Source of the DNA: Acidobacteriota bacterium
GTDB taxonomy: Bacteria; Acidobacteriota; Terriglobia; Bryobacterales; Bryobacteraceae
Direction: 5' to 3'
Length of the DNA stretch: 64,000 bases
Assembly (NCBI GenBank): GCA_016870995.1
Contig: VFZU01000012.1
Location: 1 to 64,000, forward strand
The notes below the pieces were generated by a model. That model ran no database searches and was not told the origin of the DNA. It worked only from the letters and a program-made list of their open reading frames with translations. Made by a program: the position numbers and the translations under genes. Below are positions 1 to 10,753 of this stretch, in pieces. Position 1 is the stretch's first letter, and every line of letters starts with the position of its first letter.

Positions 1-1
1 C

Positions 2-1009
2 CCTCCGGGCTCCTTCCGCAGCCCCGGAATCGTGTTTGTTTTCTCTCGACATCGAACATCTCCTTTCGAACATTTTCTCTATGAAATGTCCCAGGGAGCT
101 GTCCATCAAAATCGCGGAGCGGGAGAACCCTTGTTGAGTCTCCCTACTTTCAGCAGCGGCGCAATCGACCCCGCGGCGCTCGACAAACGAGTAAGCCATC
201 TTTCCAAAGCCCAACAATCTGATCTCAAGAATAGAGAGTCACTTTTTCATCTGGATTACCTCCTTGCTACGCTTCGCGCTCACGGCTTCAAGGAACCAGA
301 TCCAATCCGCTTGATATTTGCAAAAACCTATCCAGTGCTTCGAGTGCAACTAAGCGATCACTGGTCACCCCCAAGTCGATTCGAGCCGGCGCAACTCACA
401 ACAGTCGATCGCGAGAGTTCCCTCGAGATGGTTCGCTGGACCTCCCTCATCAGTCCGCGCTCGATGGAGTGTTGGTTTGCCGCGGGCTGCTGCGCGATTG
501 CATGCAATCTCGATTGGTGGACTGCTGCGTGGGCGAACAAAGGGTATCTTGAGCCATTGTTAAACCCTTCTGTTCCGATCCTTGAAACCGCGGCCCTCTT
601 AATCGCCATTTCACTCTCCGCGAAGAACTTGGCCAAGTCCGCATTGGCAACGGACGCCCTCTTGGCAACGCTTTCTGATGCAAGGATGAATCTCGAAAAG
701 CTCTCCAATGCTCTGATTGTTGCCGCTCAGTCTCGAGTGGTGAAGTTTTCCCGATGGGTGAAAACCCTCAATCAAGTTGCGTCCACATCCCCTGCCATCG
801 CCAAGACCATCTTTCAAGCAATCGAAGGCGTTATCGCGTCAGACACTTTCGACGATTCCCCCGACTTTGGAAAGCTCCTTGAGTTGCAGCTGGAGCTAAA
901 GTACTCGACAGGTCTCGCCCTGACAAACCCTCGTGCGATCCAATATCTGTCTACCCTCAAGGCTGGAGGCAAAACACGAATCGCTGCCCGGCGCCTCCTG
1001 GAAGCCTAG
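2..1009 (+). CDS. DUF6493-like protein, 3' part only
   Basis: The frame is open from the window edge, so the gene probably starts upstream; a GTG at 32 is the first possible start inside the window (325 aa from there). The stretch LLSLPTFSSGAIDPAALDKR resembles the conserved block near the C-terminus of DUF6493 proteins, which often sit beside SWIM zinc-finger and MoxR-type genes, but none of those is visible here. Residues 145-200 are rich in Trp, Cys and Ala and could be helical. The stop is TAG, 5 bases from the end of the convergent RND operon. The family assignment is from memory of the motif; the function is unknown. Confidence 0.6.
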   Translation, partial: PPGSFRSPGIVFVFSRHRTSPFEHFLYEMSQGAVHQNRGAGEPLLSLPTFSSGAIDPAALDKRVSHLSKAQQSDLKNRESLFHLDYLLATLRAHGFKEPDPIRLIFAKTYPVLRVQLSDHWSPPSRFEPAQLTTVDRESSLEMVRWTSLISPRSMECWFAAGCCAIACNLDWWTAAWANKGYLEPLLNPSVPILETAALLIAISLSAKNLAKSALATDALLATLSDARMNLEKLSNALIVAAQSRVVKFSRWVKTLNQVASTSPAIAKTIFQAIEGVIASDTFDDSPDFGKLLELQLELKYSTGLALTNPRAIQYLSTLKAGGKTRIAARRLLEA

Positions 1010-9764: not shown

Positions 9765-9946
9765 TTTACTATCCGTCGAAGACAGCGGCTCCACAACCAG
9801 AGGTGCCCGAGAACCCCCGCAACAGCAAGGCCAAATCGATCGTTTCAGAAATACGATTACTTATGCCACGATCAAGCCCCTTTAGGGCCACCCTTTATTA
9901 GGATGAATACGCCGAACTTGGCCCCAGCCGGGATCGAGAACCTGTA

Positions 9947-10120
9947 GCCTCTCCAGTTGGCCTGACTCCTACTCCCCGGCTGCTTTTTCTGGCCCTCGAC
10001 AAAGTCCGTTCACAATTTATTTCTCAATTGAAATCAACGGACTAGCCCACCCCGAGTTCGGAATCGACTCCTCATCTGATAACTTGCCAACTGGAGAGGC
10101 GCTCTTGCGCCTCTTTTTTT
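9947..10120 (+). ncRNA. Candidate structured RNA ending in a perfect terminator
   Basis: This lies in the longest gene-free stretch (9765-10144). A perfect 15-base inverted repeat (GCCTCTCCAGTTGGC at 9947-9961 and its complement at 10086-10100) would close a stem around 124 bases. Inside, AGTCCGTT (10003-10010) pairs with AACGGACT (10036-10043), topped by CAATT/AATTG (10013-10017/10026-10030). The unpaired flanks between the two stems are 41 and 42 bases, so the shape is a rod with a large symmetric bubble, reminiscent of 6S RNA. The 3' arm overlaps the terminator hairpin, so stem and terminator exclude each other in part. No clear promoter is visible, and the family is not identified. Confidence 0.45.
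10096..10120 (+). terminator. Rho-independent terminator
   Basis: GAGGCGC, loop TCTT, GCGCCTC, then seven T: a perfect 7-bp G+C-rich stem with a U-tract. It sits 24 bases before the ATG of the next gene on the same strand, so it either ends a short upstream RNA or attenuates that gene. Its first five bases are also part of the 15-bp closing stem of the candidate RNA. Confidence 0.8.
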
Positions 10121-10144
10121 ATTTTCAAAACAGGAGTCAACCCC

Positions 10145-10753
10145 ATGCCAAAAGCCGCCCACGGCCTCAAGCCCAACCCAACGGTTCTTTTTGAAGACAA
10201 CCCCCGCGAGTACTCTCGCTACGAATCCCGCAAGAACGAACTGTTCGAGCAAATCCTCCCCGACGGCGAACTCGAGCGCGTCACCTTCGAGCGCTATGTC
10301 TACGCCGTCCACCAATCCGAGCGCATGCGCCAGCACGAACTTGAAGCCCAGGCGCGTTGGACAAACGAACCCGATCACCCCCACTGGTTCACCCAGATGG
10401 AACGCATCCAGAAACTCGTAACCTCAATGGAGCGCCGCGCCGACAAGGCCCTCGCCGAACTCCGCAAGCTCCAGCGCGACCGCATCGCTGCCCTCGAAGT
10501 CGCCAACGAGCTCTACGTCATGGACGAGAAAACCATCATCCCGATCCCCGCAACGCTCCCCGTCGCGGAAATGCGAAAGTCCGATTTCACGAAAACGAAC
10601 CCATTCTTCATGGCCACGATGTTGCTTTCGACGAACCCAAAAATCAAAGCAATCCTAAATCGAGAAGCCGAGCCGGAACCCATAGACATCCCCGCGGATC
10701 TACTCTCGCAGCTGGATCTCTCCAGCGAACCCGCTCCACGCAAAACGCGCTAA
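10145..10753 (+). CDS. Conserved acidobacterial protein of unknown function
   Basis: A soluble, highly charged 202-aa protein without signal peptide or membrane segment. The pattern (GL...VLFEDNPREYSRYES, then a helical Arg/Glu-rich part, ERRADKALAELRKLQRDR) matches a family common in Acidobacteria whose members read HGL...GEDPxEY...LLREL, followed by RxLxALRxLQxxR; I know of no assigned function. The usual N-terminal stretch of that family (N-A-x-x-S-T-G-P-x-T) is absent, so this is a shorter variant. The ATG is preceded by a good AGGAG (10132-10136) and by the terminator/structured RNA described above, which suggests control by attenuation or separate transcription. Confidence 0.75.
   Translation: MPKAAHGLKPNPTVLFEDNPREYSRYESRKNELFEQILPDGELERVTFERYVYAVHQSERMRQHELEAQARWTNEPDHPHWFTQMERIQKLVTSMERRADKALAELRKLQRDRIAALEVANELYVMDEKTIIPIPATLPVAEMRKSDFTKTNPFFMATMLLSTNPKIKAILNREAEPEPIDIPADLLSQLDLSSEPAPRKTR

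Follow-up and report, generated by a model that had tools for sequence, protein, structure and literature searches.

In this study, a stretch of 64,000 nucleotides of bacterial DNA (hereafter the window) was investigated, and we observed that the region at 9947-10120 very probably comprises the promoter of the gene at 10145 together with its 5' leader, which bears a hairpin, as judged from comparison with related leaders. Provided that this leader reading holds, the hairpin is somewhat better explained as terminating transcription than as protecting the message, and the complete proposal, a promoter and leader whose hairpin acts mainly as a promoter-proximal intrinsic terminator, falls just short of an even chance. 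In the proposed mechanism, RNA polymerase would use the extended -10 TGATAACTT (10077-10085) and start at about 10092, and the mRNA would open directly with a GC hairpin at 10093-10116, behind which a U-tract and a short linker lead to the Shine-Dalgarno sequence and the ATG. At the hairpin, some of the transcripts would terminate about 30 nt from their start, whereby expression would be kept low; the start site, the partial termination and the low expression are what we infer. The element is of an ordinary kind, a promoter with a 5'-UTR hairpin, and belongs to an uncharacterised and strongly expanded gene family.

The preliminary description of this DNA had depicted a rod-like structured RNA closed by a 15-bp inverted repeat, and its anatomy proved correct to the base. 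As read directly from the sequence, GCCTCTCCAGTTGGC at 9947-9961 is fully complementary to GCCAACTGGAGAGGC at 10086-10100, with an outer span of 154 nt, and an inner 8-bp stem pairs AGTCCGTT (10003-10010) with AACGGACT (10036-10043), leaving bubble sides of 41 and 42 nt; all features described here lie on the forward strand. The hairpin core consists of GAGGCGC (10096-10102), a TCTT loop and GCGCCTC (10107-10113), a T7 tract follows at 10114-10120, and the five bases at 10096-10100 are common to the hairpin and the 3' arm of the closing stem, which spans the predicted start. Folding of 9947-10127 with RNAfold gave -54.9 kcal/mol (z -5.73), and none of 200 shuffles was as good. Exact inverted repeats of at least 15 bp with a gap of 20-400 nt were found once in the window against 0.1 expected per 64 kb from 40 first-order Markov simulations; the closing stem by itself is of modest significance, and chance is not negligible. 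The exact 15-mer occurs at two places in the genome, namely the two arms themselves, and at 25 places when up to two mismatches are allowed, against 13 for a reversed control pattern. Taken alone, the terminator-type site is no more than a simple scan would yield by chance (one site, shuffle mean 1.1). At least 30 other contigs of the assembly carry a nearly identical copy of the first 126 or so bases of the window (1-126) at an end, and this sequence is probably a high-copy repeat at which the assembly breaks.

During the comparative analysis, we considered 84 leaders (66, 17 further ones and that of the window), each with a start codon, an STGP-like motif, HG[LMI] and enough upstream sequence, and since paralogues are not independent, the counts of leaders overstate the evidence. 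Comparison at the sequence level showed a common order of elements, a stem that is kept under sequence change, and rod stems that were found in no other leader. The order in the family is a CGTTCACA/AT-rich block, a -35-like element (GTTCGG), about 17 nt, an extended -10, a GC hairpin, a U-rich tail, a Shine-Dalgarno sequence and the ATG. Inspection of many leaders by eye disclosed CGTTCACA with an AT-rich block ending near TCAACAACTT, then GTTCGGATTC, about 17 nt and a TGCTAGCTT-type box, after which the GC hairpin, the U-rich tail, AGGA and the ATG were likewise noticed by eye in many of them. The motif TGnTAnnnT, which we take to be an extended -10, was sought within -115 to -18 of the ATG and detected in 39 of the 84 leaders, whereas 30 rounds of shuffling gave 2.4 on average and never more than 5; its strict form is missing from the remaining 45. 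A standard consensus scan of the region found no promoter, the hexamers being far from consensus.

In the window, CGTTCACA (10007-10014), found in many family leaders, opens the AT-rich block and forms the 5' edge of the shared unit, at the position from which the leader of the C6 paralogue aligns. The -35-like TTCGGA (10057-10062) lies within the conserved GTTCGGAATC, its conservation being judged by eye and its consensus match being weak, and the Shine-Dalgarno sequence AGGAG was read directly at 10132-10136. The order of these elements suggests that transcription probably starts at the base of the hairpin, at about 10092, and most of the rod would thus lie outside the transcript; since the conserved promoter-like elements at 10057-10085 sit inside the supposed RNA, the 5' arm would not normally be part of a transcript. 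Copies within the same genome share sequence as far up as ATG-144, and a search of 41 genomes found matches to the leader in three other members of the genus, beginning no earlier than 10055 and reaching no further than 10151. At the loci beside the same tRNA-Pro gene, only 10056-10133 (genome G002) and 10055-10129 (G005) align within 9801-10144, the G007 copy of this locus ending early at a contig end, and in G006, a locus that belongs to the same conserved block was searched for a leader match and gave none.

The 5'-UTR hairpin is of the terminator-like kind, and the window UTR folds with a z of -2.78. Between the -10 and the ATG, the median folding z was -2.69, with 36 of 61 leaders below -2, and the 60 nt 5' of the -10 gave a median of +0.36 with two of 61 below -2; the 23 of the 84 leaders in which a usable -10 is missing were left out of this test. 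Because the loops are of 4 or 5 nt (one is truncated), automatic alignment of the leaders misplaces the hairpin arms, and it was not used for pair counts or a covariance model; persistence of the stem was judged copy by copy, and hairpins found in this way change in sequence between copies while the stem persists. A set of 35 leaders, obtained after 47 were dropped for lacking the strict motif in range and two for lacking a strong hairpin, displayed a T fraction of 0.46 over the 8 nt that follow the first helix and of 0.17 elsewhere in the UTR. The distance from the -10 to the first helix, measured in the same leaders with the start site predicted, had a median of 7 nt and a range of 0-10, and in 10 of the 35 the first predicted pair falls 1 nt after the -10, that is, 5' of the likely start. 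Several copies from the same genome, L008, L011 and L016 among them, carry a 4-bp mini-hairpin and no T-run, L005 and L007 have a hairpin with little T-run, and L059, L086 and L087 have no hairpin, their -10-like box being separated from the Shine-Dalgarno sequence by almost no UTR. This variability among copies suggests an accessory role for the hairpin within the leader of the gene itself. In L086 and L087, a CTTTCG...CGAAAG inverted repeat of operator-like appearance surrounds the -10-like box, from about ATG-42 to ATG-9.

The size and the rod-with-bubble outline of the region fit a regulatory RNA of the 6S kind with ends at about 9940 and 10120, as had been suggested, but we regard this as highly improbable. 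Searches with Rfam 15 gave no match to 6S (RF00013) at the gathering score in the window and none at E up to 10 in 9880-10200, and likewise none to Acido-1 (RF01686) or Acido-Lenti-1 (RF01687) in the region at E up to 10. All three candidates were rejected on these covariance models, and five weak matches (TarB, STnc40, Srn266, suhB and SQ1002), each under its gathering score, were treated as chance. Moreover, the closing stem and the full inner stem were found in no other leader examined: the best match to the 15-mer arm among the other 83 leaders is 11 of 15, and the inner stem, whose placement was allowed by 58 of the 84 leaders, is paired at 8 of 8 positions in the window only, the values of 3-7 of 8 in the other copies being partly due to chance, as the score is the best of several placements. 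The rod stems are therefore without covariation in relatives, a result that the preliminary description had itself named as speaking against a structured RNA. The long rod looks like a coincidence rather than a 6S-like RNA; its arms are private to the window copy, the 5' arm is judged not functional, and the closing and inner stems are judged to be a coincidence or a local inverted micro-duplication. A MITE or other small repeat bounded by the 15-bp arms would account for the inverted repeats, and the larger unit of leader plus gene is indeed dispersed and copied en bloc (L014 and L018 agree at 94% over 842 bp, from ATG-144 to about stop+62). Nevertheless, the 15-mer is confined to its two arms in the genome assembly, with no further copies having the same ends, a query of 191 bases found one further genome match, a partial one from 10007, and the shared unit begins at the CGTTCAC block, inside the rod. 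Several copies with shared terminal repeats were looked for and not seen, and the MITE was rejected as scarcely credible; the preliminary description, in which no target-site duplication was seen, had also held it less likely.

It had also been proposed that the mutual exclusion of stem and terminator suits an attenuator for the gene at 10145, in which a longer leader RNA from about 9940 would fold either into the 15-bp closing stem, allowing read-through, or into the terminator. In favour of this, the two structures overlap at 10096-10100, the rod is stable, one copy (L002) carries its own 10-bp arm opposite the hairpin, and a terminator hairpin with a T-tract does lie 5' of the gene, where the site alone is at chance level in the scan and the hairpin recurs in relatives. 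The 5' arm, however, precedes the promoter-like elements and belongs to sequence for which the loci beside the same tRNA-Pro gene give no alignment, and in 60 leaders (24 of the 84 had no usable -10 and were left out) pairing with the hairpin region was close to that in shuffles, both for far-upstream sequence (5.78 against 5.51 bp) and for the -35/-10 spacer (4.70 against 4.45 bp). Strong pairing was noticed in single copies, namely L002, L067 (spacer), and L077, L050 and others (upstream). A conserved anti-terminator was rejected on the mean values, and we consider the attenuator improbable; of the earlier proposal, the leader hairpin with its T-run stands, with hairpins of changed sequence at the same position in many related leaders, and a conserved anti-terminator role of the closing stem is not supported. 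A more serious competitor, which we hold to be possible at perhaps one chance in three, keeps the same promoter and leader and takes the hairpin as a 5'-terminal protective stem-loop that would hinder 5'-end-dependent decay and lengthen the life of the mRNA. This is consistent with a hairpin that begins at about the predicted start in many leaders, and it also suits the hairpin copies with little T-run (L005 and L007), but the U-rich tail directly after the helix would not be needed for protection. As a U-rich stretch tends to come after these hairpins, we favour, tentatively, the reading of a mainly promoter-proximal intrinsic terminator.

The gene served by this leader encodes 202 aa (10145-10753) and is without about 30 N-terminal residues that include the KSTGP motif (10145-10180), and it keeps the promoter and leader hairpin despite this loss. 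Family matches number 20 in the same genome (30 by profile), relatives occur in all eight genomes of the genus and, among 61 genomes sampled from the taxonomic family, in 48, the genome under study being included in both counts, and the richest genome has at least 47 matches. In a phylum-wide sample scored to nine candidates, five of 297 genomes match, namely the genome under study, one of the same taxonomic family and three others, one of which is marginal. Most of 26 aligned members display ANxxNAxxSTGPxT...HGL near the start, and the protein is predicted to be all-helical (mean pLDDT 81.9). Sequence searches of Pfam, NCBIfam, PHROGs and the PDB returned weak matches only, and where a database has a curated cut-off, no match exceeded it. 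The predicted helical model gave no Foldseek match with an E-value of 0.001 or lower, and no account of the family was met among the literature matches listed. It is a large, uncharacterised family of Bryobacter-like bacteria, for which these searches gave no accepted match in Pfam, NCBIfam, PHROGs or the PDB. The word AACGAACCCAAT, with up to one mismatch, occurs four times in 0.9 kb on the forward strand (10364, 10594, 10753 and 11264; 0.32 expected in the window) and is present in many other family copies toward the 3' end, both within and after the coding sequence. The family copy L020 (G000:C19) is broken by a stop codon, and the ORFs beside it resemble, by eye, a cytosine methylase and a Vsr-type endonuclease.

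As for genomic position, 57 pairs of loci from different genomes, falling into seven groups, share at least 400 nt downstream of the family gene, and the upstream side is shared in none of the 27 of these pairs that could be judged, numbers that are overcounted because some loci were taken twice; in one other pair (L094 and L097) the upstream side is shared. From the tRNA-Pro gene of the window to 29963, the gene order is that of G002:C8 except for a short stretch after the tRNA, and upstream of the window leader only scattered matching pieces of at most 41 aa were found against G002:C8. The window segment 1017-8390 is kept as a block in G002 and, whole or in part, in the six other genomes; in G002 and G006 it lies on a different contig from the tRNA-Pro side, and three loci of this type that were examined had no family gene. 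Two further positions show the same edge pattern, with weak and scattered upstream matches. Among the best 25 of 76 Pfam families in the upstream flanks (115 ORFs, 62 flanks) were PIN (6), DUF433 (2), PemK (2), BrnT (1) and PSK_trans_fac (1), none of which is among the best 25 of 66 families downstream (120 ORFs, 61 flanks); the upstream ORFs also include one C-5 methylase. Empty sites were sought and not found, as the upstream flanks had changed and the candidate L177 stops at a contig end. Additionally, a 35-bp, partly palindromic word at L049:2325-2359 was met again at numerous positions in G002, G005 and G007.

These comparisons offer a lead, rather than a result, that the family genes stand at edges of conserved gene order where this can be judged: species share the downstream flanks, and unrelated DNA, in which toxin-antitoxin modules are frequent, occupies the leader side. 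A further idea, which we consider rather unlikely, is that the leader-plus-gene unit is the fixed edge of variable chromosome segments, in that the DNA downstream of the family genes would be in stable order across species of Bryobacter-like genomes, and unrelated DNA, often with toxin-antitoxin or defence modules, would begin near the 5' end of the leader. On this idea, the undescribed helical protein family and its CGTTCACA-promoter-hairpin leader could belong to a system that marks or makes sites of insertion and rearrangement. The recurrent edge position is a concrete lead on the gain and shuffling of accessory genes in these bacteria. With respect to the region itself, a false 6S or attenuator candidate is removed, and in its place stands a testable promoter and 5'-UTR architecture that is common to many genes of the family.

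In comparison with known systems, the region resembles 6S RNA (RF00013) in length and in its rod-with-bubble outline but differs in giving no covariance-model match and in having stems that are not conserved, and it also differs from Acido-1 (RF01686) and Acido-Lenti-1 (RF01687), which appear among the RNAs listed from Acidobacteria (PMC2864571), in giving no Rfam 15 match. Stem-loops of the 5' UTR that stabilise mRNA are treated in a review (PMC7509114), and the window hairpin is like the 5'-terminal stem-loops of the ompA type outlined there in lying a few nt from the predicted 5' end and 5' of the Shine-Dalgarno sequence; it differs in the U-rich tract behind it, and an effect on half-life here would be putative. 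With promoter-proximal intrinsic terminators (attenuators), it shares a GC hairpin and T-tract placed between promoter and Shine-Dalgarno sequence, whereas the window hairpin, a putative site of termination, stands almost at the predicted start and has no conserved anti-terminator arm.
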